64,000 bases of DNA from Mayamaea pseudoterrestris (taxonomy: Eukaryota; Bacillariophyta; Bacillariophyceae; Sellaphorales; Sellaphoraceae), in NCBI GenBank assembly GCA_027923505.1, contig BROI01000005.1:1054001-1118000 (forward strand), in the 5' to 3' direction. Both the position numbers and the translations under genes were made by a program. This document shows, one piece after another, positions 7,176 through 57,777 of the stretch. Every line of letters begins with the position of its first letter. The stretch's first letter is position 1. Below the pieces are notes generated by a model, which did no database searches, was not told where the DNA came from, and saw only the letters and a list, made by a program, of their open reading frames with translations.

Positions 7176-9208
7176 ATGTCTCGCCGACGAGGTGAATTCG
7201 AGCATCGTACTTCCATCTTTGAAGGATCATATCGTGCCTGGAGTTTCTTGGGAGGCATCGATCCAGAGCATCTTTTCACCAAAACCTCGGAAGAATTGGA
7301 CCCGCTCTCTAATCCCATTGCCCCTGCGGACGACACTCGCGTCAAGAGCAACGCCACTTCTACCCAAGGACGACCGGAATATCCATACGAACCACTGCCT
7401 CGATCCGGATTGGCGCATCCATTCGTGCAAGCCATTCTCAGTCCATGGCTAGGACCAGACGCCGACCAGGATGCCATTACGCTTGGACTCACGACGCTTC
7501 GGACTTGGTGGCAGCACAGACGCAAGGGAGAATCGGGCAGTGCGATTGCTGCATTGAGCACCGAGAAGATGCAAGGAATTGTCGATGGATATACGCGACA
7601 TTTCTTCACGCTAGCGCACTGCCTCGTGATGAATGACAAGGAGCAACCACCGCGGACGCTGCATACCAAAATGAAAGCGCGTGAGAAGCAGCGACGCAAG
7701 GGCGGTGCAGGCGCAACGAGTGGTATTGCTGCCGCATTGGGTCTTGATAGCATGTCCGAGTCGGAGAGGAGTCGAAATTTGGAATTGTCGGGGTCGCAGT
7801 CACAATTGAACAATACGGAACTCACGCCATTGGAACGTCTTCATGCGGCCCAGCAAAAGCATTACAAGGAGTCGGAACAATTTGGTGAAGCGAGTATCGC
7901 GAGCTCATTTGTCTCTGCAAACATTAACTTGAAAGGGAAGTGCGTTCCCGGAAAAGTCGACTTGGGCAGCATGGTGGATAGTGTCAATCGCCATGCTGCT
8001 CAGCTTGCTCACCGTGGGAATGAGGTGTCATCAAGCGTCAACAGTCGAGGATTTTGCTTGCCGCCGGCGAATGATACTCACAATGCCATTGTGCAGTATG
8101 GAGATCCCCGCATGACGCCGATCGTCCTTTGTAATACGCAAGGCGACTGCCAAATAGCCATGTCGGTGGATGGAATTACATGCAGCCATTGCGTTCGCAT
8201 TGTGGAGACTGTATTAAAAGGTTGTAACGGCAACAGATCTCCAATCTCAGGTTTGCTGGATGCTGCTGCAGATCGCGCCATGAATAGTGTGATTATAAAG
8301 ATAGAGCGACCCGCTGACGCGAAACGAATTGCCTTTCAAGCAGCGAGAAATCTTGCCATGGTTGGCTACACGGCCAAGGCCCTGGAAGTCAAAATATCAG
8401 ACGAGAACGACCAACCTTTTGCGCAAGAAGCAATTTGCCAAGCCTTTCAAGCAGCTGCCAAGGGTGATGCCCCCGCAGTTTTTGACTGGGGAAGTTGCTG
8501 CAGCTGCCCTGATAATGGCGTCGAGCGACGAGACTGTCCCAGGTATGCCGTACGACGATGAATGCTCATTTGTGGCGAAAGGCACTTTAAGGTGTTTGAT
8601 GTTGCCCCAGTGGCATTGTCCCAAGCTTACCTCACAGCACGTTTTGCGTTATGATTTTTTTACACAGACACTCGCAGATGGAACCGACAATGTTAAATGC
8701 TTTTGTCGACCGGGGATTGCAAGTTGCTGCTTTTTTGAAAATGCCTGCAACCGCCAGGTCTATTGAGATATTCAAGGACCCGCTGTTACGTGTTCACGAC
8801 AAGCAAGCGACTACTGGTACTGTCCAGCCCATGAGTGGAGTAGGTTTGAGTCACATGGAAACTTTGGCGGTTGCTGCGGCTGGATCAGCCCACATGCCAT
8901 CATATGTCTCAGTTCCATCCGATCGCGAGGCGCTTCTTCGCCAATCATTTCCCAGAGCATCTTATTCTCGCCGCAATAGTCGGAACCCTTCCATTATGTC
9001 GTTTGGAAATGGATTTCATCAGGCTCCAATGGCGTCGGAAACAACGTTTGGTCGCGCCATGTCGGGTTTATCTGCATTATCAATTGATTGGGAAAACCTG
9101 GACGATTTTGATTTAGAAGTCGACCACAGTGCGCACATCAACAACCAAGGGCGAGCAAATGGAGGTGATGGGCAGAACGACAATGCAGCGCATGCCGTTG
9201 GAGTTTAG
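7176..9208 (+). CDS. Protein with a C-terminal heavy-metal-associated (HMA) domain
   Basis: Two exons, 7176-8542 and 8668-9208, joined across a 125-bp intron (GTATGC...ACACAG) to read CPRHSQMEP in frame; 635 aa. The open frame extends upstream to 7044 but without an ATG, so 7176 is the first usable start unless a 5' exon exists. Residues about 325-405 form a ferredoxin-like HMA fold: MSVDGITCSHCVRIVE, with the metal-binding pair Cys336/Cys339 (family pattern GMTCxxC), then SVIIKI and a second beta-alpha-beta half ending GYTAKALEV. The first 320 residues are low-complexity to helical with a basic stretch (MKAREKQRRKGG) and resemble nothing I know. The C-terminal part is Ser-rich with an acidic end (WENLDDFDLEVD). 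There are no membrane segments, so it is not a P-type ATPase. A copper or zinc chaperone or sensor role is possible but only inferred. Confidence 0.7.
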
Positions 9209-9522
9209 GGTGTGTGTATTCCTCCTCCTCGAACTCTTGCAATGAGAGGATACAATTGATTTGACTATCACTGCCATTCTTGAATAGTTACTGTACTATA
9301 CTAATACAAACACTTCCGCGATTTGCTATGTCACAACTGCAAACCTTTAACCAGAGGTTGTTACACGCAGGTCACCCGGTGCGGTCAATCGTTTCAAAGT
9401 ACATAACGCTTAAGCTACCTATCTACAGGTAGTCAAACTCCTAGTATGACATAGTGCCATAATAGCCACACTAATTAAGCAATCTATTAATGTGAGGCAC
9501 AGGCATTCATGTGAGATCTCGA
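9209..9522. other. Convergent 3' intergenic region
   Basis: About 310 bp between the 3' ends of the HMA gene and the TIM gene. No gene or structured element seen. Confidence 0.5.
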
Positions 9523-10491
9523 CTAATTTTGGAAGTTAATGATGCGTCCGAACTTGGTGGCATCCAGCGATGCTCCTCCCACCAAGCATCCATCAATATC
9601 TGGCTGTGACATGAGTTCGTCCACCGACTCTGGAGTGACGCTCCCCCCGTATAAAATGCGCACGCCATCGGCCGTCTCTTGATCGTACATTTCCGCCAAA
9701 ATGGCGCGGCAAGAGGCATGCACCTTTTGTGCCGTCTCCTTTGTCGCTACTTTGCCTGTACCAATCGCCCAGACTGGTTCATATGCAATCGCCACCCGAC
9801 TCATGTCCTGCTTCGAAATGCCGGAGAGCCCCTTTTTTAGTTGAATCGTGCAAACAGCGTTGGCCAAGTCAGCCTCGTACTCCGCTTCAGATTCGCCAAT
9901 GCAAAGCATGACAGACATGCCCTTTTCAATCAGCTGTAGGCATTGTGCGTTAATAACTTCATTCGATTCACCAAAGATGGTACGTCGTTCAGAATGACCT
10001 GCCAAGCACCATTGCACGCCGATGGATTTGAGCATGTTAGCCGAGACGCCGCCGGTAAATGCGCCCTTTTCTTCCGCAAAGCAAGCCTAGATTGAATGCG
10101 AAAACGAAGAATGAGCGACGATATGATTTTCGTAAACATAGCACTCGCAGATTGTAACAGCACAAAACCTCTGCCCTGTGTGTCGTACCTCTGCCCCAAC
10201 AAGAATGTTAGAACCCGCCGCGGCCATGGTCGCTTCGATGAAAGGATAGGGCACAAAGAGTGCAACTTCGGCTTCTGGGCTAGACGGCGTAACGGAGGAA
10301 CTAATATCAGTTGCTAGCTGAACAGCTTCGGCTTTGGTAGACGGGTTGAGTTTCCAGTTTCCGGAGATGAAAGGCGTTCGGGCCATTTGCAAGCTACTGC
10401 AGGAAGCAAGGGACTTGGTGTTGCTAAAGGCAGGGGCAAAAGCGGCTGCCGATCCGAAGCAGACAGACAACGTGATTGCGGAGAGCTTCAT
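9523..10491 (-). CDS. TPI: Triosephosphate isomerase, plastid-targeted
   Basis: Two exons on the minus strand, 10491-10189 and 10086-9523. The 102-bp intron (10087-10188, GTACGA...TCTAG) falls in NILVGAE/ACFAEEKGAFTGG, giving 288 aa. The enzyme interconverts dihydroxyacetone phosphate and glyceraldehyde-3-phosphate. All active-site motifs are present: GNWKLN (Asn, Lys), LAGHSERR (His), AYEPVWAIGTGK (catalytic Glu and the flexible loop), ILYGGSV and GCLVGGASL (phosphate binding). The first ~20 residues are a signal peptide followed by SAAAFAPAF, a textbook ASAFAP motif with Phe at the predicted cleavage site, so the product should enter a red secondary plastid and act in the Calvin cycle or plastid glycolysis. 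It is transcribed away from the glycosyltransferase gene, with a short shared upstream region. Confidence 0.96.
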
Positions 10492-23921: not shown

Positions 23922-24109
23922 GACGTGAATTAAACGATAATATCCGGCAAGTAACATCATTGACTCTTTCATTTAACAATCTAAAGAGCACTCACGTTAC
24001 CACCTTCGTCTTTTGCGTCCAGCGACTGAACGAATCGAGCCACCGCAGCTCTTCCCTCCGAGTGTGATCCTCCGCTCTTCCATCGCCTCCGTCGTCCCCT
24101 CAAGACACC

Positions 24110-25228
24110 ATGACGGAATCAAGCAGCACCAAGATCGTTTTTCCGCTAAAGACACTCTCTGTTCTTGGCTCTACCGGCACCATTACCTTCGATGAAGCGA
24201 TCCAGTTCGACAAGGAGCTCCTCCAAAATGCGCGCTCCGTCACCAGTCAATACGGCAACGGCGGCGTCGGCCACGTTCACTTGGTAGTCACACCAGCTGA
24301 GTACGCTCTACGCTCTGCGCAAGTTTATGCTCCTGTGGCCTTCCCGGTGCTCGACATTGCCGCAGGAGCTACTGGCGCCCAGATCGCCGAGGCCAACCGC
24401 GCGTTCAACGCCGCCCTCAGCGCTTTCAACAAGAACAACTTGGTCACCACGGCTCTGATTGCGCAAGTCGTCAAGGCGATTCCTTCCATCTATCTTCAGT
24501 CTTTGGAGGACCCCGCCACGGGAATGGAGGAAGTCACCATCCTTCAGCTTCGCCAGCACATCAAAGCTGAGTACGGCACCGCCACGCCGCAGCAAGTCGC
24601 GGCAAACTACGCCATGGCGAGCGACCCGTTCAACCTCAGCGAGCCAGTCGAAACGTACACTGGCAAGATGGAGCGCATTCGTCGCCTTGCAGCAGCAACC
24701 ACCAATCCGATGTCGGACGCCGCCTCCATCCGTTTCGACGTGGCCGCCATGGCTGCAACCGGCCAGTTCAAAGCCGACTTGCACGCGCGCGCCATTGAGC
24801 AACAGATCCCAGGACAAGCTGATGAAACGTGGCCAGCCTTCGTCTCTTGGCTCAAGCGTGTAGACAAAGCTCACCACCAGGAGAAGACTGTTGCAGATGC
24901 TGGATACTTGGCGCAGGCAAACTTTGCGTCCGCTGTCGCAGCTGCTGTCCGAGAGCAAATCGCTGCGACACACCGTGCGCCGGCAAATCCGCCGCCACCG
25001 CTGCCCAACAACAACAATCAGGGCAACAACGGCAACAACAACAACGGCAACAACGCTCCTCGCGTCAAGAAGTACTGTCATTCTCATGGCTACTGTGGAC
25101 ATACAAGCATGCAGTGCAACCGTCGCAGTCCAGGCCACCAAGAGGCAGCAACTAGTGCCAACAAGATGGGCGGCAACGAAACCAACTTCGTCTACCGCAA
25201 CCAACGCAGTCGCGCGCAAGGAGAATAG
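24110..25228 (+). CDS. gag: Gag of the copia element
   Basis: One open frame of 372 codons that follows the 5' LTR. The N-terminal and central parts are helical, as in copia capsids. They are followed by a Pro/Asn-rich linker and a Cys/His cluster (CHSHGYCGHTSMQC) resembling a nucleic-acid-binding zinc knuckle. Part of a fossil mobile element. Confidence 0.85.
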   Translation: MTESSSTKIVFPLKTLSVLGSTGTITFDEAIQFDKELLQNARSVTSQYGNGGVGHVHLVVTPAEYALRSAQVYAPVAFPVLDIAAGATGAQIAEANRAFNAALSAFNKNNLVTTALIAQVVKAIPSIYLQSLEDPATGMEEVTILQLRQHIKAEYGTATPQQVAANYAMASDPFNLSEPVETYTGKMERIRRLAAATTNPMSDAASIRFDVAAMAATGQFKADLHARAIEQQIPGQADETWPAFVSWLKRVDKAHHQEKTVADAGYLAQANFASAVAAAVREQIAATHRAPANPPPPLPNNNNQGNNGNNNNGNNAPRVKKYCHSHGYCGHTSMQCNRRSPGHQEAATSANKMGGNETNFVYRNQRSRAQGE

Positions 25229-25279
25229 GCCGGAGGGACGGCATCTACAAGTAGTTCATTTAATAAGCTTGAGTTAAAT

Positions 25280-28200
25280 GAACTTGATGTCTCCTCCCCG
25301 CCTATATCTCTAGCCATAGCCGACACTGGATGTACTGGACACTACATCTCGTGCCAGTTGCCGTTCACCAACCGGCAACCCGCCAATCCCAGTCTTACCG
25401 TCCACGTTCCTAACGGAACAACAATGCATTCCACTCATACTGTTCAACTAGACCTTCCCGGTTGCTCCTAGGAGGCTTGCAAGGCGCACGTTTTCCCCGA
25501 AATGATGCAGTCACTAATCTCCATCCGCCAACTTTGTGACGACGGCTGCTCCACGCTATTTACCGACACTGCAGTCACTGTTACCAAAGGAGATAAAGTG
25601 ATCCTTGCAGGGACTCCCAGTACTGACACCAAGCTTTGGACCGTCAACATGCAGCGTCCTACTGGCAGCCCAGCAGCCAGCGTCAATTACGCACTCAACA
25701 TGTACCAACCGCTCAACACAGTGGCCGACCGCGTCGCCTACGTTAGCGCTTGTCTGGGTTACCCTACAGTCTCTACGCTTTGCAAGGCTTTGGACGCCGG
25801 GCGGCTTACTACTTTTCCTGCCATCACATCGGCCCAAGTCAAAGCTTTTCCGCCCCGCACTACCGCAACAGCAAAGGGTCACCTCGACCAGACGCGCAAG
25901 AACCACCGCAGCACCAAGCAAGCCAACTCAGTTACAGTCACCGCGGATGAGCTCGCCATTGATATGAACCCGCCGCCAAATGATCCGCCAACTCTTCGTT
26001 CCATGCGAGTTTACGCCAATTATACCAAAGCGACAGGCAAGATCCATTCCGATTTAACAGGACGATTCATGTTACCCTCCAGCTCTGGCAACACAGTCAT
26101 GCTTGTTGTCTATGATGAAGATAGCAACGCCATCCTAGTCGAACCAATGAAGAACAAGAGCGGCGCCAGCATCCTGGCGGCGTATACCAGGATCCACAAG
26201 TTGCTCTGCGCTCGTGGCCTTAAACCACAGCTCCAGCGCCTCGACAACGAAGCATCTAAAGCTCTTAAAGACTACATGGTCTCTGAATCAGTTGATTACC
26301 AACTTGCACCGCCTCATATACACCGTCGCAACGCTGCGGAGCGAGCCATTCGCACGTTCATCAACCATTTTACGGCGACTCTTTGCGGCACTGATCCCAA
26401 GTTTCCATTACACCTTTGGGACAAGCTGCTCCCACAATGCGTCTTATCTCTTAATCTGTTAAGAGGATCCAGAATCAATCCAAAGCTCTCGGCTCATGCT
26501 CAATTACATGGCACGTTTGATTTCAACAAGACGCCGCTCGCACCCGCTGGCACTCGAGTCATCATCCATGAAAAGCCAAGCATTCGCGCCTCACATACAC
26601 CTCATGGTGTAGATGGTTATTACCTTGGACCAGCGCTTGAACATTACCGCTGCTATTGCGTGTATGCAACCGACACAAATGCCGAACGCATTGCTGACAC
26701 CCTTGCCTGGTTTCCTACTCAGACAATCATGCCCGTCGCCTCCAACCAAGACCTTCTCATTGCAGCCATTAAAGACATGACAAGCGCTCTTCGCAATTGG
26801 ACCACCACAAGTGGTCCCGTCCCTGCCAGTGACGCTGGTCACATGGAGGAGTTACGGCGTGTTGCCGCGGCACTAGCCACTCAGGTTGGTGCACCTGCGC
26901 CTGCAACCGCCGACTCCGCCCCGCCTGCGCTCCAGGCTGACCCACCAAGCATCCCTGCAGATGTGGCCCCGTCGCCATTGCCTACTCAACCCGCTCCAGC
27001 TACAGAAGCGCCCACTGCACCAGCTCCCAGGGTGGCCAATGAGAACGCGAACGCGAGTGCGACAGCTCCCAGGGTGCCGGATGCGAACGCGAACGCACCT
27101 ACTGCGACCACCGATGCGACACCTCCCAGGGTGGCCGCGGCCGATCCTGTTGTCGACTCCACCATGGCGCCCACCGCCGCTCGCGTACGTTTTAACTTGG
27201 AAACTACATCAGAGGAGCCCTGGACGTGTGTCAGTCGCACGAAGAACCCTGCGCAGCGGCGCAGCCTGCAGAAGAAGGAGCAGGCCGCCCGCCTGGCCAA
27301 GCTCACGGCCAACGAAGGATCCAACTTCCGTCGTGCCAGCCCTTACAAGAGCACCAAAGCAACGACTTACCTCCCAGTGGGCATCACACAGGCTGCCTAC
27401 ACGGAAGCCAAGCGCGGCACCCGCAGCGCCCATGGCATCAGTCGCCCTTCCGCCAAAAAGCTTCAAGCCAACACGGTTACCGACCCAGTCACAGGCGCCG
27501 CGCTTGAATATCGCCATCTCATTGCAGGCCCAGATTCTGCCCAATGGGAACGCAGCATGGCCATGGAAATCGGTAGACTTGCTTAAGGGTGTGCCAAGCA
27601 TGACACTAAAGACACCAACACGATGCGACTCATCAGCCCCAATGATGTGCCGGCTGGCCGCAAAGTCACCTATCCTCGCGTCGTTGTTGCCATTAAACCT
27701 GACAAAGCTGAAAAGCAAAGAGTACGCATCATGGCAGGAGGTGACAAGCTTGACTACAATGATATCACCGCGGCCCCTTGCGCCGACATTCCCCTTGTTA
27801 AGCTCCTGTTGAACAGCGTGCTCTCCACCCCAGGAGCAAAATTCATGGCCGCTGACATTAGCAACTTTTACCTCGGTACACCAATGCCTGCAAAGGAGTA
27901 CATGAACATCCCCGTTCGCCTTCTTCCCAATTGCATTAAAGCAGAATACAACATTGCACAAATCGAACGCAAAGGCAACGTCGTAGCGGAACTCAGCAAC
28001 ACGATTTACGGACTCAAACAAGCTGGTTACCTTTCCTACTTGCGTCTCCGCAAACTGCTGTGCTCGAATGGCTACAATGACTCTGAGCATGTACCAGGAC
28101 TCTTTATACACAAGACCCGCCCAGTGGCATTTGCTCTAGTGGTGGACGATTTTGGCATCCGCTATGTGGGCGACGAGCACGGCGAGCACTTGCTCAATGT

Positions 28201-29266
28201 CCTCCGCTCGCAGTACACTATTACAGTTGATAAAACAGGTATCACACTTAAATGGGACTATGACAAACGGATTTTGGAAATGAGCATTCCCAACTACGTC
28301 GCCAACGCGCTCAACCGATTCCAGCACCCGTATCCGTCCAAACAACAAGATGCTCCTCATCCTTGGACGGCCCCCGTTTATGGCGCCAAACAACAGTTTG
28401 TTGATGAAGACTGCACTGATCCCCTTCCTCCAGAAGGCTGCGTTCGCGTTCAACAAGTTTGCGGCGTTTTCCTCTTCTATGGGCGAGCCATTGACAACAC
28501 CATGCTCACGCCCGTCAATGAACTCGGCGCTGCCCAGGCCAAAGGCACAAAGAAGACTGAAGCTGCAATGGTTCAATTCCTTGATTACGCCGCTTGTCAT
28601 CCAGACGTGATCCTCGTCTTCCATGCCAGTGATATGGTCCTTCATTGCCACACAGACGCCTCCTACTTGACGGCCGCCAAAGCACGCTCCCGCATCGCTG
28701 CTTTCCATTTCCTCAGCTCCATGCCCACGGACCCCTTGAAAGCACCATCGCCTGATGCTCCTCCTCCTCCTGAAAATGGAGCAATCCACGTTGGATGCGA
28801 GCTATTGAAATGCGTCGTCTCCTCCGCCGCCAAGGCGGAGCTAGGCGGCGCCTTCCATTGCGCCAAAGACGCCACCGTTTTCCGCACAGCACTTGAAGAG
28901 CTCGGCCATCCTCAACCGCCAACGCTCATTCAAACAGATAACAGCTGCGTGGCAGGCATCGCCAATGGCACCGTCAAACACAAGCGCTCGAAAGCAATGG
29001 ACATGCGTTTCTACTGGATCAAGGATCGCATTGCTCAGGGCCAATTCATTCTCCATTGGCGCCGCGGTTGCGACAATTTAGCGGATTACTTTACCAAGCA
29101 CCATCCTGCAGTTCACCACCGCAAGATGCGCTCCCATTACGTAAAGGATCCTCCCAAGGCAACAGTCTCTCCCGAGACACCTTCCTTGCCAGGGTGTGTT
29201 GATACTCCACTTCCGGGTTCCTTATCCGGTATCCAAGGAAGCTGCACTGGCTCGGCTTCCACCTAA
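25280..29266 (+). other. pol: Pol region of the copia element (PR-IN-RT-RH), broken
   Basis: In order: an aspartic protease segment (IADTGCTGHY), an integrase core (IHSDLTGRF through ERAIRTF), a Pro/Ala-rich linker with a repeated RVxxANANA motif, a reverse transcriptase (AADISNFYLGTPM; VVDDF at the catalytic Asp pair) and a copia-type RNase H (HTDASYL, SSAAKAELGG, IQTDNSC). It lies on more than one reading frame and is broken, with about two breaks. Confidence 0.85.
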
Positions 29267-45348: not shown

Positions 45349-47334
45349 CTACTCGGAGCTTTGTCGAACTAGCAGCGGATTCGACTCCTCATCGTTGCTA
45401 GTTTCTAGACCCTTCATCAGAGCTCCAGCCATGATTGGCTTACCTCCGTTATTACTCATTAACACACCGACTCCCGGCACCACCGGTGCGCTCCTGTACA
45501 AACTAGAAATAGTGCTTCGCTTCATTCTTGCCTCGGATTTCTTCTTCGGTCCAAACACTGACGAGCCACCAGCTCGCATCGAGCCAGACTTGTACAAGAC
45601 CGGACCAGTTCCGTACTTCAAGTATGCCGTATGACGCTTGGCGCGTATCAAAGGAGATTCATCACCCGCGCGACGTGGAGGCCGCTGCGGCGTCTTAGGC
45701 GACTTGAGCATGTCAACTGCCTGCTCCTCTATGCTTTCGACAAAACGCCTAACCGGCGGCAACATGTTTACCATCACACCGATGATCGAGATGGCAAACA
45801 AAACCCAAAAATAGGAACCAACATGCGCTGTCGCGTAATGATCCAATCGACCAATATTGGGAGTTCCATTGGAACTATTGAAACATCCTTTAAACAGTTG
45901 GTACAATGCAATACAAATCACATTCGGCAACCCACCTATGCAGAAAAGGTTTAACGCACTCGCGAGCACCTTGTTTTCCGGCGGCGCTGCCGTAAATGCC
46001 ACCTCGTAGGCAGCACTGACTGCGAAAATTTCGCCGGCTCCGATCAGGCAGTACGATAAGCATTGCCACAAGACAGAAATTGACTTTCCTGTCGAGTGGT
46101 ACACATGATGGATCCGCGCCTCGACGAATAATGCCCACAGTATTGCCATTGCGCCCAATAAAGATCCCAGGGCAAACTTATACGTTGTGGGCATCTTGAT
46201 GTTTCGTGCCGCAAGCGCAGGATAGAAAAAGTGCCCAATCAAGTACCCAAATAGTAAGACAGCTATGGCATCCGTGTTGTTCATGGTGGATGCATCAATG
46301 TAGTGAAACGCCTTGCGCATAACATTGCCCTGGATGATGAATGTCGTCGCCATTTGCGAGTAAGCAATGTTGAAGGGAATCACCAAAAGAGAGATTCGAA
46401 AAATGGCTAACAGTCCCATATTCGCGGAACCTGGCGGCCCTGGTGCAGGCGTCGACTTCTTTGTCTTCTTCTCAGGTGCGCATTTCACATAGCGGGAACT
46501 TCCACTCAAAAACACAAGGATTCCGACAGTCATGGCCACCACCGGAGTAAAGTACGCATATGTCACATTGGTTTGAGCCATGACTGGAACGACAATTCCA
46601 CCAATCAATGCTCCAATGTTGATGCACATGTAGAAGGAAACATAATAGCTTTCGATTAGAGACGACTGCAACAATGGGTGGAATTGCCGGGCACCAAAGA
46701 CGTTGACCATGCTTTTGAGAATCCCAGTTCCCATGGGCCACAATAAAAGTAATCCAAAGCGTAGAGCCATCGTGTTGAACTCTTTGCCAAGAAAGCCTGG
46801 AATGGTTGTCGCGGCAATCAAAACAAGCCCAGGCAAGTAAAAGCATAACGACCCGCAAAGAATGCTCCAGTAATCTCCGAGTACCGAGTCTGAAAGATAC
46901 GCGCCTATAAAGGGCATTGAATAGGCGACTGCGACAGAAATGGAAACGTAAGTCGATGCATCAACCGCATGCATCCCTGCGTTCCAATTTTTATCATAGG
47001 TTCCAGTCAAGTACGACGTCTGCGTCATATTTATTGCGTAGAATGAAAACCTTTCAATGAGCTCCACAATCAAGATGTACAAGACAGAATAAGTCATTGG
47101 ATTCAGTGCATGGCGAGTGTCCGTTCCAAACTCCGTGACATGGCGAAGCGGACGTCCCTTATCGCCACTGAGGCACTCGTCAGGAAGAAGAGACAGCTGC
47201 TCCGGTTGAGAAACATTGTTTGGGAGATCGTCCGAGTCGTCTGAGAGTGTTGGTGATGGAGGCATGGACGCTTGACGCGAGGTGCCGCCGAGGAGACTGG
47301 ACCCCTCATCAGGTCGATCGGCATTCGTCGCCAT
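45349..47334 (-). CDS. POT/PTR2-family proton-coupled oligopeptide transporter
   Basis: Single exon, first ATG at 47334, 661 aa. About twelve membrane segments follow a ~90-residue acidic cytosolic tail. Family signatures: LIVELIERFSFYAINM in TM1 (the ExxERFxYY motif, here with one change), PFIGAYLSDSVLGDYWSIL for the loop after TM2-3, and SFYMCINIGALIGG for the PTR2 signature FYxxINxGSL. These import di- and tripeptides (or, in plants, nitrate) with protons across the plasma membrane. The C-terminus is a ~100-residue basic cytosolic tail (RPPRRAGDESP, KKKSEARMKRS), longer than usual. In its neighbourhood a CNDP dipeptidase lies on the same strand downstream. Peptide import and dipeptide hydrolysis would fit together, but there is no evidence of co-regulation. 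Confidence 0.9.
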   Translation of the reverse strand: MATNADRPDEGSSLLGGTSRQASMPPSPTLSDDSDDLPNNVSQPEQLSLLPDECLSGDKGRPLRHVTEFGTDTRHALNPMTYSVLYILIVELIERFSFYAINMTQTSYLTGTYDKNWNAGMHAVDASTYVSISVAVAYSMPFIGAYLSDSVLGDYWSILCGSLCFYLPGLVLIAATTIPGFLGKEFNTMALRFGLLLLWPMGTGILKSMVNVFGARQFHPLLQSSLIESYYVSFYMCINIGALIGGIVVPVMAQTNVTYAYFTPVVAMTVGILVFLSGSSRYVKCAPEKKTKKSTPAPGPPGSANMGLLAIFRISLLVIPFNIAYSQMATTFIIQGNVMRKAFHYIDASTMNNTDAIAVLLFGYLIGHFFYPALAARNIKMPTTYKFALGSLLGAMAILWALFVEARIHHVYHSTGKSISVLWQCLSYCLIGAGEIFAVSAAYEVAFTAAPPENKVLASALNLFCIGGLPNVICIALYQLFKGCFNSSNGTPNIGRLDHYATAHVGSYFWVLFAISIIGVMVNMLPPVRRFVESIEEQAVDMLKSPKTPQRPPRRAGDESPLIRAKRHTAYLKYGTGPVLYKSGSMRAGGSSVFGPKKKSEARMKRSTISSLYRSAPVVPGVGVLMSNNGGKPIMAGALMKGLETSNDEESNPLLVRQSSE

Positions 47335-47979
47335 GGACAAACGCTAATATCGCGATCAAGAACAAGACCTACAATTAACAGTAGATTGTTTTCCCTCGGA
47401 GAGCTATGAGTGTGTGCTATGGCCCGTCAGTACGGAAGTGCCGAAGGGGGAAGAAGAAGTGAGAAGAAGGCCGGCGAGTCGATGGACATGAACATGCGAT
47501 CGGCAGCAGGCGCGGCCGATCGAGTCATGCACGACCAGGTCATTATGAAAAGCTGTCGTATGAGAACGTAGAACGCCACTTTTCAATATTCTTTAACCGG
47601 ATGTGATTGACTGTGAGTTGCGCTGTGCCTCGACTCTAACAAACCATTCCGACTCCAGAACACATTCGCGGGGTGGGGAGGTGGCAGGATCAATGGTTTC
47701 ACAGAGCCTGCGAAGACTTTTACGCGCTCCGCGCACACAAAGACTGCCAAACAGTGGTGCCAACAATTTTAGTCTATGTGGAACAGAAGGAGAGGCTAGA
47801 GATTGCAGTAATTGAGTGGTAATTGATGGCTCTCTGAGAGCATACTCCTAAAGTATAGCAATGTGTTTGGGATAGCTAACACGTTTATTATTAGACATCA
47901 TTGCATGCACCACAACCATGACATCATCTAGGTCACAGCTGCAGTATTCCATGTAATGTCGTGAGACATGTCCGGATAT
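47335..47979. other. Intergenic, no gene seen
   Basis: About 650 bp between the transporter start and the satellite block. Probably the transporter promoter next to unassigned sequence. Confidence 0.45.
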
Positions 47980-48160
47980 ATCCTTCTGCAACCAACTCCA
48001 TTGTGCTACAGTGTGTGGCCTTCAATGACTCCCCCAATAGTCTTGTTCCATGAATTCTGTTCTGGCTATCCTTGGAGACACATATTTGGTGAGATTGGTG
48101 CATTACAGTCACTCCCAGCCCACGTGTAGCATCAGTTTGCTATATGGAATAATACAAGTC
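47980..48160. repeat. Satellite B, left flanking copy
   Basis: One copy of a ~170-bp repeat (GTGCTACAGTGTGTGGCCTT, then TGTTCCATGAATTCTGTTCT and CACGTGTAGCATCAGTT), which recurs on the right side of the satellite block. Confidence 0.8.
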
Positions 48161-48252
48161 CTCCAAGATATTTGCTAAAGAGATGATCTAAGGGCAAAGG
48201 GACATCACACATGAGGCATATGCAGCAAGTGCTGCTATTTCCGGCAACCCCT
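48161..48252. other. Junction between satellites B and A
   Basis: About 90 bp of apparently unique sequence between the left B copy and the first A monomer. Confidence 0.4.
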
Positions 48253-51200
48253 GGTGAGAAGTTCTCACCAGTCTCAGCCCGCAGATGCCATGACATTCAG
48301 ACACACCTACAGCAAGCCCGATAGGTGCCCAAATTACACCAGAATGGTGCCACCATCATTATTCAAGCTGCGCTACAAGATGGTAGGCTTGGCTGGTGTC
48401 TCAGGGGATGGCAATGTATTTGGCTATAACTTGTCACCAGTCTCAGCCCGCAGATGCCATGACATTCAGACACACCTACAGCAGGCCCAGTAGGTGCCCA
48501 AATTACAGCAGAATGATGCCAACGTCATTATTCAGGCCGCGCTACAAGATGGTTTGCCTGGCTGGTGTCTCAGGGGATGGCAATGTATTTGGTGACAACT
48601 TGACACCAGTCTCAGCCTGCAGATGCCATGACATTCAAACACACCTACAGCAGGCCCTGTAGGTGCCCAAACTACACCAGAATGGTGCCAACATCACAAT
48701 TCAAACTGCGCTACAAGATGGTAGGCTTGGCTGGTGTCTCAGGGGATGGCAATGTATTTGGTGACAACTTGTCACCAGTCTCAGCCTGCAGATGCCATGA
48801 CATTCAGACACACCTACAGCATGCCCGGTAGGTGCCCAAACTACACCAGAATGGTGCCAACATCCTTATTAAGGCTGCGCTACAAGATGGTATGTCGCGC
48901 TGGTGTCTCAGGGGATGGCAATGTATTTGGTGACAACTTGTCACCAGTCTCAGCCCGCAGATGCCATGACATTCAAACGCCCCTACAGCAAGCCCTGTAG
49001 GTGCCCAAACTACACCAGAATGGTGCCAACATCATTATTCAGGCCGCGCTACAAGATGGTATGCCTGGCTGGTGTCTCAGGGGATGGCAATGTATTTGGT
49101 GACAACTTGTCACCAGTCTCAGCCTGCAGATGCCATGACATTCAGACACACCTACAGCATGCCCTGTAGGTGCCCAAATTACACCAGAATGTTGACAACA
49201 TCCTTATTCAGGCTGCGCTACAAGATGGTTGACTTGGCTGGTGTCTCAGGGGATGGCAATGTATTTGGTGACAACTTGTCACCAGTCTCAGCCTGCAGAT
49301 GCCATGACATTCAGACACACCTGCAGCAGGCCCGGCAGGTGCCCAAATTACACCAGAATGATGTCAACATCATTACTCAGGCTGCGCTACAAGATGGTAG
49401 GCTTGGCTGGTGTCTCAGGGGATGGCAATGTATTTGGTGACAACTTGTCACCAGTCTCAGCCTGCAGATGCCGTGACATTCAAACACACCTACAGCAAGC
49501 CCTGTAGGTGCCCAAAATACACCAGAACGGTGCCAACATTATTATTAAGGCTGCGCTATAAGATGGTAGGCTTGGCTGGTGTCTCAGGGGATGGTAATGT
49601 ATTTGGTGACAACTTGTCACTAGTCTCAGCCTGCAGATGCCGTGACATTCAAACGCCCCTACAACAAGCCCTGTAGGTGCCCAAACTACACCAGAATGGT
49701 GCCAACATCATAATTCAAACTGCGCTAGAAGATGGTAGGCTTGGCTTGTGTCTTAGGGGATGGCACTGTATTTGGTGACAACTTGTCACCAGTCTCAGCC
49801 TGCAGATGCCATGACATTCAGACACACCTACAGCATGCCCGGTAGGTGCCCAAATTACACCAGAATGTTGCCAACATCCTTATTCAGGCTGCGCTACAAG
49901 ATGGTTGACTTGGCTGATGTCTCAGGGGATGGCAATGTATTTGGTGACAACTTGTCACCAGTCTCAGCCTGCAGATGCCATGACATTCAGACACACCTGC
50001 AGCAGGCCCGGCAGGTGCCCAAATTACACCAGAATGATGCCAACATAATTACTCAGGCTGCGCTACAAGATGGTAGGCTTGGCTGGTGTCTCAGGGGATG
50101 GCAATGTATTTGGTGACAACTTGTCACCAGTCTCAGCCTGCAGATGCCGTGACATTCAAACACACCTTCAGCAGGCCCGGCAGGTGCCCAGATTACACCA
50201 GAATGGTGCCAACATCATAATTCAAACTGCGCTAGAAGATGGTAGGCTTGGCTTGTGTCTTAGGGGATGGCAATGTATTTGGTGACAACTTGTCACCAGT
50301 CTCAGCCTGCAGATGCCATGACACTCAGACACACCTACAGCAAGCCCTGTAGGTGCCCAAAAACACCAGATCGGTGCCAACATCCTTATTCAGGCTGCGC
50401 TACAAGTCGGTAGGCTTGGCTGGTGTCTCAGGAGATGGTAATGTATTTGGTGACAACTTGTCACTAGTCTCAGCCTGCAGATGCCCTGACATTCAAACGC
50501 CCCTACAGCAAGCCCTGTAGGTGCCCAAACTACACCAGAATGGTGCCAACATCCTTATTCAGGCTGCGCTACAAGATGGTTGACTTGGCTGGTGTTGTAT
50601 TTGGTGACAACTTGTCACCAGCTGCAGATGCCATAACATTCAAACACACCTACAGCAAGCCCTGTAGGTGCCCAAAATACACCAGAATGATGCCAACATC
50701 ATTATGCAGGCTGCGCTACAAGATGGTAGGCTTGACTGGTGTCTCAGGGGATGGCAATGTATTTGGTGACAACTTGTCACCAGTCTCAGCCCGCAGATGC
50801 CATGACATTCAGACACACCTACAGCAAGCCCTGTAGGTACCCAAATTACACCAGAATGGTGCCAACATTATTATTAAGGCTGCGCTATAAGATGGTAGGC
50901 TTGGCTGGTGTCTCAGGGGATAGTAATGTATTTGGTGACAACTTGTCACTAGTCTCAGCCTGCAGATGCTGTGACATTCAAACGCCCCTACAACAAGCCC
51001 TGTAGGTGCCCAAACTACACCAGAATGGTGCCAACATCATAATTCAAACTGCGCTAGAAGATGGTAGGCTTGGCTTGTGTCTTAGGGGATGGCAATGTAT
51101 TTGGTGACAACTTGTCACCAGTCTCAGCCTGCAGATGCCATGACATTCAGACACACCTACAGCATGCCCGGTAGGTGCCCAAATTACACCAGAATGGTGC

Positions 51201-51693
51201 CAACATCCTTATTCAGGCTGCGCTACAAGATGGTTGACTTGGCTGGTGTCTCAGGGGATGGCAATGTATTTGGTGACAACTTGTCACCAGTCTCAGCCTG
51301 CAGATGCCGTGACATTCAAACACACCTACAGCAAGCCCTGTAGGTGCCCAAAAACACCAGATCGGTGCCAACATTATAACTTAGGCTGCGCTACAAGATG
51401 GTAGGCTTGGCTGGTGTCTCAGGGGATGGCAATGTATTTGGTGACAACTTGTCACCAGTCTCAACCCGCAGATGCCATGACATTCAGACACACCTACAGC
51501 AGGCCCTGTAGGTGCCCAAATTACACCAGAATGGTGCCAACATCCTTATTCAGGCTGCGCTACAAGATGGTTGACTTGGCTGGTGTCTCAGGGGATGGCA
51601 ATGTATTTGGTGACAACTTGTCACCAGTCTCAGCCCGCAGATGCCATGACATTCAGACACACCTACAGCAGGCCCTGTAGGTGCCCAAATTAT
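48253..51693. repeat. Higher-order repeat, copy 1 (3,441 bp)
   Basis: Starts at the variant palindrome GGTGAGAAGTTCTCACC. About 20.4 monomers whose individual variants recur in the same order exactly 3,441 bp later. I noticed no difference from copy 2. Confidence 0.9.
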
Positions 51694-54600
51694 GGTGAGA
51701 AGTTCTCACCAGTCTCAGCCCGCAGATGCCATGACATTCAGACACACCTACAGCAAGCCCGATAGGTGCCCAAATTACACCAGAATGGTGCCACCATCAT
51801 TATTCAAGCTGCGCTACAAGATGGTAGGCTTGGCTGGTGTCTCAGGGGATGGCAATGTATTTGGCTATAACTTGTCACCAGTCTCAGCCCGCAGATGCCA
51901 TGACATTCAGACACACCTACAGCAGGCCCAGTAGGTGCCCAAATTACAGCAGAATGATGCCAACGTCATTATTCAGGCCGCGCTACAAGATGGTTTGCCT
52001 GGCTGGTGTCTCAGGGGATGGCAATGTATTTGGTGACAACTTGACACCAGTCTCAGCCTGCAGATGCCATGACATTCAAACACACCTACAGCAGGCCCTG
52101 TAGGTGCCCAAACTACACCAGAATGGTGCCAACATCACAATTCAAACTGCGCTACAAGATGGTAGGCTTGGCTGGTGTCTCAGGGGATGGCAATGTATTT
52201 GGTGACAACTTGTCACCAGTCTCAGCCTGCAGATGCCATGACATTCAGACACACCTACAGCATGCCCGGTAGGTGCCCAAACTACACCAGAATGGTGCCA
52301 ACATCCTTATTAAGGCTGCGCTACAAGATGGTATGTCGCGCTGGTGTCTCAGGGGATGGCAATGTATTTGGTGACAACTTGTCACCAGTCTCAGCCCGCA
52401 GATGCCATGACATTCAAACGCCCCTACAGCAAGCCCTGTAGGTGCCCAAACTACACCAGAATGGTGCCAACATCATTATTCAGGCCGCGCTACAAGATGG
52501 TATGCCTGGCTGGTGTCTCAGGGGATGGCAATGTATTTGGTGACAACTTGTCACCAGTCTCAGCCTGCAGATGCCATGACATTCAGACACACCTACAGCA
52601 TGCCCTGTAGGTGCCCAAATTACACCAGAATGTTGACAACATCCTTATTCAGGCTGCGCTACAAGATGGTTGACTTGGCTGGTGTCTCAGGGGATGGCAA
52701 TGTATTTGGTGACAACTTGTCACCAGTCTCAGCCTGCAGATGCCATGACATTCAGACACACCTGCAGCAGGCCCGGCAGGTGCCCAAATTACACCAGAAT
52801 GATGTCAACATCATTACTCAGGCTGCGCTACAAGATGGTAGGCTTGGCTGGTGTCTCAGGGGATGGCAATGTATTTGGTGACAACTTGTCACCAGTCTCA
52901 GCCTGCAGATGCCGTGACATTCAAACACACCTACAGCAAGCCCTGTAGGTGCCCAAAATACACCAGAACGGTGCCAACATTATTATTAAGGCTGCGCTAT
53001 AAGATGGTAGGCTTGGCTGGTGTCTCAGGGGATGGTAATGTATTTGGTGACAACTTGTCACTAGTCTCAGCCTGCAGATGCCGTGACATTCAAACGCCCC
53101 TACAACAAGCCCTGTAGGTGCCCAAACTACACCAGAATGGTGCCAACATCATAATTCAAACTGCGCTAGAAGATGGTAGGCTTGGCTTGTGTCTTAGGGG
53201 ATGGCACTGTATTTGGTGACAACTTGTCACCAGTCTCAGCCTGCAGATGCCATGACATTCAGACACACCTACAGCATGCCCGGTAGGTGCCCAAATTACA
53301 CCAGAATGTTGCCAACATCCTTATTCAGGCTGCGCTACAAGATGGTTGACTTGGCTGATGTCTCAGGGGATGGCAATGTATTTGGTGACAACTTGTCACC
53401 AGTCTCAGCCTGCAGATGCCATGACATTCAGACACACCTGCAGCAGGCCCGGCAGGTGCCCAAATTACACCAGAATGATGCCAACATAATTACTCAGGCT
53501 GCGCTACAAGATGGTAGGCTTGGCTGGTGTCTCAGGGGATGGCAATGTATTTGGTGACAACTTGTCACCAGTCTCAGCCTGCAGATGCCGTGACATTCAA
53601 ACACACCTTCAGCAGGCCCGGCAGGTGCCCAGATTACACCAGAATGGTGCCAACATCATAATTCAAACTGCGCTAGAAGATGGTAGGCTTGGCTTGTGTC
53701 TTAGGGGATGGCAATGTATTTGGTGACAACTTGTCACCAGTCTCAGCCTGCAGATGCCATGACACTCAGACACACCTACAGCAAGCCCTGTAGGTGCCCA
53801 AAAACACCAGATCGGTGCCAACATCCTTATTCAGGCTGCGCTACAAGTCGGTAGGCTTGGCTGGTGTCTCAGGAGATGGTAATGTATTTGGTGACAACTT
53901 GTCACTAGTCTCAGCCTGCAGATGCCCTGACATTCAAACGCCCCTACAGCAAGCCCTGTAGGTGCCCAAACTACACCAGAATGGTGCCAACATCCTTATT
54001 CAGGCTGCGCTACAAGATGGTTGACTTGGCTGGTGTTGTATTTGGTGACAACTTGTCACCAGCTGCAGATGCCATAACATTCAAACACACCTACAGCAAG
54101 CCCTGTAGGTGCCCAAAATACACCAGAATGATGCCAACATCATTATGCAGGCTGCGCTACAAGATGGTAGGCTTGACTGGTGTCTCAGGGGATGGCAATG
54201 TATTTGGTGACAACTTGTCACCAGTCTCAGCCCGCAGATGCCATGACATTCAGACACACCTACAGCAAGCCCTGTAGGTACCCAAATTACACCAGAATGG
54301 TGCCAACATTATTATTAAGGCTGCGCTATAAGATGGTAGGCTTGGCTGGTGTCTCAGGGGATAGTAATGTATTTGGTGACAACTTGTCACTAGTCTCAGC
54401 CTGCAGATGCTGTGACATTCAAACGCCCCTACAACAAGCCCTGTAGGTGCCCAAACTACACCAGAATGGTGCCAACATCATAATTCAAACTGCGCTAGAA
54501 GATGGTAGGCTTGGCTTGTGTCTTAGGGGATGGCAATGTATTTGGTGACAACTTGTCACCAGTCTCAGCCTGCAGATGCCATGACATTCAGACACACCTA

Positions 54601-55134
54601 CAGCATGCCCGGTAGGTGCCCAAATTACACCAGAATGGTGCCAACATCCTTATTCAGGCTGCGCTACAAGATGGTTGACTTGGCTGGTGTCTCAGGGGAT
54701 GGCAATGTATTTGGTGACAACTTGTCACCAGTCTCAGCCTGCAGATGCCGTGACATTCAAACACACCTACAGCAAGCCCTGTAGGTGCCCAAAAACACCA
54801 GATCGGTGCCAACATTATAACTTAGGCTGCGCTACAAGATGGTAGGCTTGGCTGGTGTCTCAGGGGATGGCAATGTATTTGGTGACAACTTGTCACCAGT
54901 CTCAACCCGCAGATGCCATGACATTCAGACACACCTACAGCAGGCCCTGTAGGTGCCCAAATTACACCAGAATGGTGCCAACATCCTTATTCAGGCTGCG
55001 CTACAAGATGGTTGACTTGGCTGGTGTCTCAGGGGATGGCAATGTATTTGGTGACAACTTGTCACCAGTCTCAGCCCGCAGATGCCATGACATTCAGACA
55101 CACCTACAGCAGGCCCTGTAGGTGCCCAAATTAT
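51694..55134. repeat. Higher-order repeat, copy 2 (3,441 bp)
   Basis: Begins at the second GGTGAGAAGTTCTCACC (51694-51710) and runs to about 55134, where the sequence passes into satellite B. Deleted and variant monomers keep the order and spacing of copy 1. Confidence 0.9.
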
Positions 55135-55365
55135 TTGGCAGGGCAGAGGTCCACATAGTAACCAGCTACACAGTGCTACAGTGTGTGGACTTCAAAGACT
55201 ACCCCTGATTGTCGTGTTCCATGAATTCTGTCCTGGCTTTGCATGGGGACACATATGCGGTGAGATTGAAGCATAACAATTATTCCCGGCTCATATGTAG
55301 CATTGGTTGTTTGGCAGAGCAGAGGTCCACACAGTAACCAGCTAGACGGTGCTACATGTGTATGT
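55135..55365. repeat. Satellite B copies between the A array and a lone A monomer
   Basis: B-type sequence (GGCAGAGGTCCACA, TGTTCCATGAATTCTGTC, GACACATATGCGGTGAGATT), one full copy and part of the next. Confidence 0.8.
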
Positions 55366-55614
55366 ATTTGGTGACAACTTGTCACCAGTTCAGCCTGCAG
55401 ATGCCATGACATTCAGACACACCTACAGCAAGCCCAATAGGGACCCAAACTACACCAGAACGGTGCCAACATCCTTATTCAGGCAGCGCTACAAGATAGT
55501 ATGCCTGGCTGGTGTCTCAGGTGTTGGCAATGTGACTGGTGAGAAGTTCTCACCAGTCTTGGCCTGCAGATGCCATGACATTCAAACGCCCCTACAGCAA
55601 GCCCTGTAGGTGCC
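55366..55614. repeat. Isolated satellite A monomers inside satellite B
   Basis: About one and a half A monomers, with one palindrome of each type: GGTGACAACTTGTCACC near 55373 and GGTGAGAAGTTCTCACC at 55538-55554. Confidence 0.85.
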
Positions 55615-56532
55615 CAACTTATTTGGCAGGGCAGAGGTCCACATAGTAACCAGCTACACAGTGCTACAGTGTGTGGACTTCAAAGACTACCCCCGATTGT
55701 CGTGTTCCATGAATTCTGTCCTGGCTATGAATTGGGACACATATGCGGTGAGATTGATGCATAACAATTATTCCCAGCTCACTTGTAGCATTGGTTGTTT
55801 GGCAGAGCAGAGGTCCACACCAGCTAGACGGTGCTACATGTGTGGCCTTTAACGACTACCCTCAATGGTCTTGTTCCATAATTTCTGTTCTTGCTATCCT
55901 TGGGGACACATATGCTGTGAGCAAAGATTTACACAGTAACCGCCACACGGTGCTACAGTGTGTGGCCTTCAATGACTAACCACAATGGTCTTGTTCCGTG
56001 AATTCTGTTTTGGCTGCTCTTGGGGACATGTATGTGGTGAGATAGGTGCATAACAACCACTACCAGCTCACGTGTAGCATCAGTTGTTTGGGAGGGCAAA
56101 GATCCACGCAGTAACCAGCTACATGGTGCTACATGTGTGGCCTTCAAAAAATTTCCCCATTCTGTTCTGGCTATCCTTGGATACATGTATGCGGTGTGAT
56201 CGGTGCATAACAATCACTCCCAGCTCACGTGTAGCATCTGTTATTTGGGAGGACAAAGATCCACACTGTAACTAGCTACAAGGTGCTACAGTGTGTGGCC
56301 TTCAATGACTACACCCAATAGTCTTGTTCCATGTATTCTGTTCTGGCTATATTTGGGGACACGTATGCTGTGAGATTGGTGCATAACAGTCACTCCCAGC
56401 TAACGTGTAGTATCCGTTATTTGGGAGGGCAAAGATCCACACAGTAACTAGCTACAAGGTGCTACAGTGTATGGCCTTCAACGACTACCCCCAATAGTCC
56501 TGTTCCATGAATTCTGTTCTGGCTATGGAAAA
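55615..56532. repeat. Satellite B array, right side
   Basis: About five to six divergent copies of a ~165-172-bp repeat (TTCCATGAATTCTGTTCTGG recurs near 55704, 55873, 55993, 56157, 56325 and 56497). Copies differ from each other more than A monomers do, and several have small deletions, which suggests an older array. Confidence 0.85.
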
Positions 56533-56844: not shown

Positions 56845-57777
56845 TCATCTTTTTCGCTTCTTTTTCTTCTTCCGACTGCGCTCCACTCCGACCAGAATCG
56901 CAGCTTCCTCCTCCACTCGCCTACGAGTTAGCATCTCACTTCGGCGTCTCAGTTTAGCCTCGCGCTCGTAAACAACTTGCATCAACCGTGTAGCCCCTTC
57001 AGTCAATCTCTGCTCAAAAAGCTTCAAACAATCTCGTCGCGTGCTTTCGTCAAGCTCTATCCGCAGCGCTCCTTGCCCATTCTCATTGTAGTAGTGCTCG
57101 AGAATAATGCAAGCCGCCTCCGCGTCCAACGTTCCGTACAACGACCGACCAGGATGATCAGCATGCGCTCGAGCGGCCGCTTCTTTAGAGGTGTATCGCT
57201 CGTCCCAAAGAATCACAGGCAAATTCGCACCCAAAGAAGCCACAACGTAGCGCATCAGCTCGGCAGCAAAGACGAGTGTTATGTTGGTTTGCTCTGCAAG
57301 CGTTCCATTTTTGTGAAGGGGCAAGCCGACAACGATCTGTGACGCTTGTTCGCTTCGTGCGTACTGGACAATCCGTTCGCAGAGTTGCGTACTGTTTAAA
57401 TCAGTCAAAATAGCCAAGGGTGTGGGCTGATAGCCAACAGACGTTGCAATTCCTGTGCGAACAAGTCCAAAATCGACGCCAATTGTCCTTATTCCAATGA
57501 GTGTGCAAGAGTTCTGCGTCGAAGCAGCTGCCGCGTCAATGACGGCTTGATACTGGCCGAGTCTTGTCGTGTTGTTCACTCTCATCGAAAGGAGAGAGAC
57601 CGCTGCAGAAACCGTACTGTCAACTGCCAGCAATGAAGATTCTCGCTTGTGTTTGACATTAAGTCGTCGCGTTGCACGTTTCCACGGATTGGATGAAGTC
57701 CTAGGAGGCACAAGCAACCAAGCTCGGGCAAATTGGACCGAAAGCAGACACAAAACTGAATTGTAAATTGCTTTCAT
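56845..57777 (-). CDS. RuvX/YqgF-type RNase H-fold nuclease, probably plastid
   Basis: Single exon, ATG at 57777, 310 aa. Residues ~95-265 are a full YqgF domain: TIGVDFGLVRTGIA (first catalytic Asp), QIVVGLPLHKNG, LPVILWDERYTSKEA (Glu) and LDAEAACIILEHY (last Asp). Bacterial YqgF/RuvX is an RNase H-fold enzyme implicated in 16S rRNA 5' maturation and proposed as an alternative Holliday-junction resolvase; the organellar protein could process plastid rRNA. The N-terminus is a signal peptide (YNSVLCLLSVQFARA) followed by WLLVPP, an ASAFAP-like site with Trp at +1. The C-terminal ~45 residues form a basic coiled stretch ending in a KKKKKRKR cluster, not seen in the bacterial ~140-aa proteins. 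Confidence 0.88.
   Translation of the reverse strand: MKAIYNSVLCLLSVQFARAWLLVPPRTSSNPWKRATRRLNVKHKRESSLLAVDSTVSAAVSLLSMRVNNTTRLGQYQAVIDAAAASTQNSCTLIGIRTIGVDFGLVRTGIATSVGYQPTPLAILTDLNSTQLCERIVQYARSEQASQIVVGLPLHKNGTLAEQTNITLVFAAELMRYVVASLGANLPVILWDERYTSKEAAARAHADHPGRSLYGTLDAEAACIILEHYYNENGQGALRIELDESTRRDCLKLFEQRLTEGATRLMQVVYEREAKLRRRSEMLTRRRVEEEAAILVGVERSRKKKKKRKR

Follow-up and report, generated by a model that had tools for sequence, protein, structure and literature searches.

A dispersed 169-bp satellite of Mayamaea pseudoterrestris with a slowly evolving 17-bp palindrome, a putative protein-binding box

Alpha satellite combines a monomer of near-nucleosomal length with one 17-bp box, the CENP-B box (CTTCGTTGGAAACGGGA), which is bound by a protein (PMC8122249). 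In Meloidogyne satellites, CENP-B-box-like motifs lie at the monomer junctions (PMC3694981), and the bivalve satellites phBglII400, DTHS3 and BIV160/Cg170 are described as dispersed, with palindromes, conserved blocks and abrupt junctions (PMC5139131). The repeat considered here, termed satellite A, shares the near-nucleosomal monomer and single 17-bp box of alpha satellite and the dispersal, palindromes, conserved blocks and abrupt junctions of the bivalve repeats. Its box is a palindrome which is neither CTTCGTTGGAAACGGGA nor a close relative of it, with 1 of 17 positions identical on one strand and 2 of 17 on the other in an ungapped comparison made by eye. Among the titles listed in a literature search, none was recognised as describing satellite A, which is weak evidence of absence, and an exact match to GGTGASAASTTSTCACCAGTCTC was found neither in viral contigs nor in bacterial or archaeal genome contigs.

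The window is the whole stretch of 64,000 nucleotides that was analysed, positions 1054001-1118000 of contig BROI01000005.1. Within it, satellite A spans positions 48252-55134 as head-to-tail 169-bp units (TRF, period 169 from 48252), between an ORF for a PTR2 transporter (45349-47343, minus strand) and one for RuvX (56845-57777, minus strand). The unit length given in the original prediction is borne out by the TRF period and by the full-length monomers, 681 of 800 of which are exactly 169 bp long. The only frames of more than 150 aa within the array are two copies of one 156-aa frame. The first half of the array is repeated without any difference at an offset of 3441 bases downstream, so that the main array amounts to about 20 independent monomers and not 40. 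This exact tandem duplication of 3442 bp either arose very recently or reflects an error in the assembly. The features are collected in Table 1.

Table 1. Positions of satellite A, its inverted repeats and the neighbouring repeats (window coordinates unless a locus is named)
Feature	Position	Strand	Remark
Satellite A array, copy 1	48252-51693	+	~20 monomers of 169 bp
Satellite A array, second copy	51693-55134	+	3442 bp identical to 48252-51693, one base common to both
Two further satellite A monomers	55361-55620	+	B-type repeat divides the pair from the main array
Palindrome 1, G..C variant GGTGAGAAGTTCTCACC	48253-48269	.	first monomer of array
Palindrome 1, G..C variant	51694-51710	.	duplicate of 48253 site
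Palindrome 1, G..C variant	55538-55554	.	edge monomer
Palindrome 1, main C..G form GGTGACAACTTGTCACC, example	48760-48776	.	
IR2, G-C variant CACCTGC...GCAGGTG	49318-49341	.	monomer 49267
IR2, G-C variant	49994-50017	.	monomer 49943
Satellite B fragment, ~175-bp unit	47986-48137	+	left of satellite A array
Satellite B unit	55131-55364	+	between satellite A blocks
Satellite B array	55619-56526	+	right of satellite A
Satellite C	L011:6193-10000, L023:1-2700 + 7702-9690, L027:7258-7590		beside satellite A arrays
Common flank of satellite A arrays	L012:1-2861, L021:6052-8525, L027:1359-4228		

Several other repeats occur in the same setting. Satellite B (for example 56002-56526), with at least 202 matches in the genome, is next to satellite A in 4 of the 36 short loci that carry the variant palindrome, as it is in the window. 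Kinship between the two was rejected, the local alignment score (18) lying below the 95% point of shuffled sequences (20). A third satellite of about 181 bp, satellite C, has at least 497 genome matches and flanks some satellite A arrays; it may or may not be akin to satellite A, the alignment of the two scoring 80 where the highest of 200 shuffles gave 76. The window also holds a Copia-like element (24068-29266) with three long ORFs and CAACAACGGC repeats, in which the reverse transcriptase match of one ORF falls just below the Pfam cut-off (31.3 bits vs 31.6). Satellite A arrays on three contigs have a flank of 2.5-2.9 kb in common, at ~97% identity; a larger segment may have carried the array along. 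At L022:5203-5283 an array switches from the minus to the plus strand without a gap.

Across the 30.6-Mb genome of 41 contigs, the palindrome class GGTGASAASTTSTCACC has 7751 sites, 7158 of them directly followed by AGTC, whereas the same pattern reversed but not complemented, used as a control, has none. At 169 bp per site, satellite A makes up at least 1.3 Mb, or ~4.3% of the genome. As a noncoding unit repeated head to tail in high copy number, it is satellite DNA. The same genome has 53 matches to the chlorophyll-binding family PF00504, in keeping with a photosynthetic organism; of three light-harvesting loci, the one compared with the PDB had only distant relatives there. In the window, 42 matches to the palindrome class with at most two mismatches were found where 0.05 are expected, and 34 of these are perfect, three of the 34 being the G..C variant. 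The original prediction had reported these three as perfect palindromes with a change on both arms, and they are present as described, but the sites at 48253 and 51694 count as one event because the segment 48252-51693 is duplicated exactly.

Relative to the other parts of the repeat, the 17-base palindrome changes at a rate three to five times lower. Among 684 unique monomers from unselected loci, the palindrome columns show 4.6 parsimony changes each and the non-CpG columns outside it 14.1 (Mann-Whitney p 7e-8, an indicative value, as columns are linked), and the 17-column windows with the fewest changes start at columns 168 and 1-5, coinciding with the palindrome. The arm columns have 1-8 changes each (columns 8 and 10 have 6 and 2), and the centre has 15, which is like the background; without the centre, the mean is 3.9 per column. 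Compared locus by locus, the arms are less divergent than the outside columns in 21 of 21 loci with a mean ratio of 0.21, some of these loci being neighbouring stretches of one cluster, and the centre base has an average divergence of 0.025, with no difference in about half of the 21. The box is thus more conserved than the remaining monomer, as in a CENP-B-box satellite. In satellite C, which served as a negative control, the ACAAGTTGT core ranks 167-170 of 176 and is among the least conserved windows (45 monomers), so slow palindromes are not general in these satellites. Protein binding is probably what slows the satellite A palindrome.

The contrast between palindrome and outside is smaller in old monomers: in those below 80%, identity is 0.90 in the palindrome and 0.76 outside, a difference inflated by the cutting of the classes on outside identity. 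The palindrome is perfect in 13 of the 34 oldest monomers when selected sites are left aside (all selected ones being perfect), which points to a possible relaxation of constraint in this group. In divergent monomers, conservation in columns 10-27 is about equal to that in the palindrome; the box may therefore be longer, with a one-sided extension, and not purely symmetric. Outside the box, the CpG columns 28-29, 37-38, 50-51 and 119-120 have a mean of 43 changes against 14 elsewhere, about threefold more, and except at column 119 these are mostly to TG or CA, as if methylated. The DNA methylase family PF00145 has 3 matches in the genome.

A protein dimer on duplex DNA predicts constrained arms around one free central base, and this is the pattern found, with the arms constrained and the spacer free. 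In a hairpin, whose loop cannot have fewer than three bases, columns 8-10 would be expected to vary freely; columns 8 and 10 do not. A dimer is favoured over a hairpin because these two columns change so little. The preferred reading, to which about an even chance is given, is that satellite A is a dispersed 169-bp satellite whose palindrome is a putative homodimer site on duplex DNA, with constraint acting on the arms and two versions of the site having moved as a block. The palindrome would consist of two GGTGASAA half-sites separated by a single free base, the 17-bp duplex site would be recognised by a symmetric (homodimeric) DNA-binding protein, and purifying constraint on each arm would preserve it.

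The original prediction took paired change in the two arms as a sign that symmetry itself is selected. Genome-wide, arm bases 6 and 12 are strongly linked, beyond chance, with 56 double and 24 one-sided changes among the 7751 sites, although linkage alone is not the same as compensation. Covariation was assessed in 57 sources, namely the window, 20 loci (L009-L028) chosen among those that matched a 338-bp query best, and L029-L064, a set of 36 short loci; in these sources nhmmer gave 1078 monomer matches. The short loci were retrieved with the variant palindrome itself as an exact query and are thus an ascertained sample; the 45 sites fetched in this way were left out of the unselected sets. 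Under a home-made tree null, in which the changes of each column are replayed on random branches, pair 6/12 had E ~53 and rank 25 of 14028 among 770 unselected monomers, and rank 2 of 162 at its own separation. With the selected sites included (803 monomers), it had E ~5 and rank 3, and rank 1 of 162 at its own separation. No column pair of any kind was significant under this null, which therefore has little power.

Co-changes were also counted on a palindrome-masked tree, and these tree-based counts presume no recombination, yet the favoured reading includes it. In the unselected set, columns 6 and 12 change 20 and 22 times and do so together on 9 branches (fraction 0.45); with selected sites there are 27 and 34 changes and 20 shared branches (0.74). 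Three of the eight palindrome pairs have too few changes for such a count, and among the other testable pairs 1/17 co-changes once and 2/16, 4/14 and 8/10 never. In 1192 control pairs taken from other parts of the monomer, this fraction averages 0.09, with a 95% point of 0.29 and a maximum of 0.74. Eight of them reach 0.45, all less than 5 columns apart, and none of the 680 at 5 or more columns does so; when selected sites are included, none of 1208 reaches 0.74. Covariation at 6/12 is therefore suggestive, being confined to one pair that is not significant against the tree null and yet unusual for its distance. The pattern is read here as the passage of two old alleles from monomer to monomer at a place where single mutations are rare. 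Block transfer is not a full explanation, because none of the 680 distant control pairs co-changes as often, and real compensation at pair 6/12 alone is possible. More generally, subfamily variants of a tandem repeat can mimic compensatory covariation, and constrained arms with a free centre, compared array by array, provide a cleaner test. Of the original claim, what stands is that palindrome 1 is kept, as its slow arms and free centre indicate; paired change was not accepted as proof of selected symmetry.

The two versions of the site are unevenly distributed between subfamilies of the satellite. An older and a young subfamily are divided by fourteen columns that lie outside the palindrome and whose definition draws in part on monomers of the selected loci. 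By these columns, 56 of 68 G..C monomers are old-like (15 of 23 without selected sites), as are 36 of 941 C..G monomers and 6 of 7 one-sided ones. In a tree built without columns 6, 9 and 12, 47 of the 58 unique G..C monomers fall in one 76-member clade (support 0.78), within which parsimony needs many switches, and the remainder are scattered. G..C sites lie within 200 bp of an array edge in 30 of 45 selected cases and in 2 of 6 in unselected loci; for main-form sites, the counts are 13 of 39 in selected and 35 of 790 in unselected loci.

Some monomers are chimeric. The 55538 monomer has old-type bases immediately left of its palindrome and mostly young-type bases to the right, and two others (L026/3648 and L032/628) are young at every diagnostic column but -3 to -1, which adjoin the G..C palindrome, as expected for a short conversion tract bearing the whole site. 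In a further G..C monomer, L026/3141, all 14 columns are of the young type, which could reflect either a shorter conversion tract or a double change of independent origin. The double change arose at least once, deep in the history of the satellite A family, and the perfect palindromy of both versions fits constraint. The paired changes are largely two inherited versions of the site, by which selection for symmetry is not proven. In the preferred reading, the C..G version would belong to the young amplified subfamily and the G..C version mostly to the older one, which now occupies short arrays and the edges of arrays, and recombination or gene conversion shifting the whole site as a block would account for most paired changes.

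A paired change had also been claimed for a second inverted repeat (IR2). The G-C variant does occur at two sites in the window, but their monomers, 49267 and 49943, are 98.8% identical, against a pairwise mean of 91.5% over the 18 monomers of the window that were compared, so the two are probably one copied event. Monomer 50112 has an unpaired mixture, CACCTTC with GCAGGTG. In a set of 634 unique monomers (the window plus 20 other loci), 2 carry the A-T to G-C change (columns 57,70), with one-sided changes commoner there, and 533 have a C.T mismatch at the second pair (columns 53,74). The IR2 arms accumulate 14.1 parsimony changes per column, against 3.9 in the palindrome arms without the centre. 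Unconserved and mostly mismatched at one pair, IR2 was rejected as a kept structure.

These results bear on the rival explanations to different degrees. The original prediction had offered a hairpin or cruciform, in DNA or RNA, upheld by compensatory change. Such a structure would accord with the perfection of both palindrome versions, the excess of double over single changes and a co-change at 6/12 above that of every control pair 5 or more columns apart. However, covariation exceeding the phylogeny was not found at several pairs: 6/12 itself is not significant against the low-power tree null, and the single co-change of 1/17 is the only one among the four other testable pairs. Columns 8 and 10, which would have to lie in the loop, change little, and IR2 is unconserved, with a mismatch at one pair in most monomers. 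Folding is not unusual, with z-scores of -1.16 (RNA) and -0.86 (DNA), and an RNA family was rejected as there is no Rfam match within the window. A hairpin is accordingly very unlikely. Symmetry could instead come from mutation and not selection, through template switching that copies one arm onto the other; such mutation at quasipalindromes has been reported for E. coli and for yeast (PMC7202029, PMC3820800) and would yield paired changes. It would be expected to affect all pairs, whereas many single changes stay uncorrected and almost no double changes occur outside 6/12, and it does not obviously explain the lower divergence of the arms. This explanation seems just as improbable as the hairpin.

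The main rival to a protein-bound box is a role in recombination or amplification, in which satellite A is passive and its palindrome is kept as a selfish or mechanical junction site for recombination, amplification or monomer insertion, and not for use by a host protein. Both the window array and its exact duplicate start at the palindrome, and in an exploratory count over unselected loci 11 of 22 array starts, two of them in the window, lie in columns 155-28, a quarter of the monomer. Junctions within palindromes have also been reported in the bivalve satellite phBglII400 (PMC5139131). Array ends, by contrast, lie in these columns in 7 of 21 cases, near the expected quarter, and positions in the diverged array edges are fuzzy. 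A passive satellite of this kind is considered unlikely, though seriously to be reckoned with. The near-nucleosomal 169-bp unit and the conserved 17-bp box would also suit a centromeric satellite with a CENP-B-box-like element, and a centromere had been hinted at originally. This hint is not supported. In an incomplete sample, the sites group into at least 88 clusters, with up to 6 on a single contig and 33 of the 41 contigs represented, and not into one major site per chromosome. Since, in addition, the window array sits between the PTR2 transporter and RuvX ORFs, a satellite with one centromeric location per chromosome is unlikely, and the box is unlike the CENP-B box. The chance of a centromeric satellite is therefore judged to be very slight.

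If the palindrome is a dimer-bound box, the binding would most likely serve to mark or silence the chromatin of the arrays in a CENP-B-like manner, outside centromeres. A bolder version of this proposal, considered distinctly improbable, is that a host protein dimer on thousands of dispersed sites organises or silences the chromatin of chromosome arms as an independent, non-centromeric counterpart of CENP-B with its own palindromic box, symmetry being selected so that the variable pair changes on both sides. A genome search for DDE_1, the pogo/CENP-B transposase domain, gave 0 matches, but the search control likewise matched nowhere, so that this negative carries no weight. Should a binder be found, this alga, in which over 7000 nearly identical palindromic sites occur, would lend itself well to the study of what satellite-bound proteins do outside centromeres.

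Compared with alpha satellite, satellite A differs in that its box is palindromic and unrelated in sequence, its arrays are dispersed whereas alpha arrays are centromeric, and its binder is putative (PMC8122249). The Meloidogyne satellites likewise have a conserved short motif, for which a role in rearrangement has been proposed, but one of their motifs resembles the CENP-B box and the satellite A box does not (PMC3694981). For the bivalve satellites, a conserved palindrome with a free centre is not part of the description drawn on here (PMC5139131). PpSat1 of Phytophthora parasitica has diverged monomers at array edges and in low copy, like the old subfamily of satellite A, although the units of PpSat1 and PpSat2 are ~330 and 142 bp and palindromes go unmentioned in the main text (PMC7290008). 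Of the cases found, the nearest are the nematode and bivalve satellites that carry conserved boxes or palindromes, and satellite A is best filed not as a centromeric or CENP-B-box satellite but as dispersed satellite DNA with a conserved box, a kind already known.
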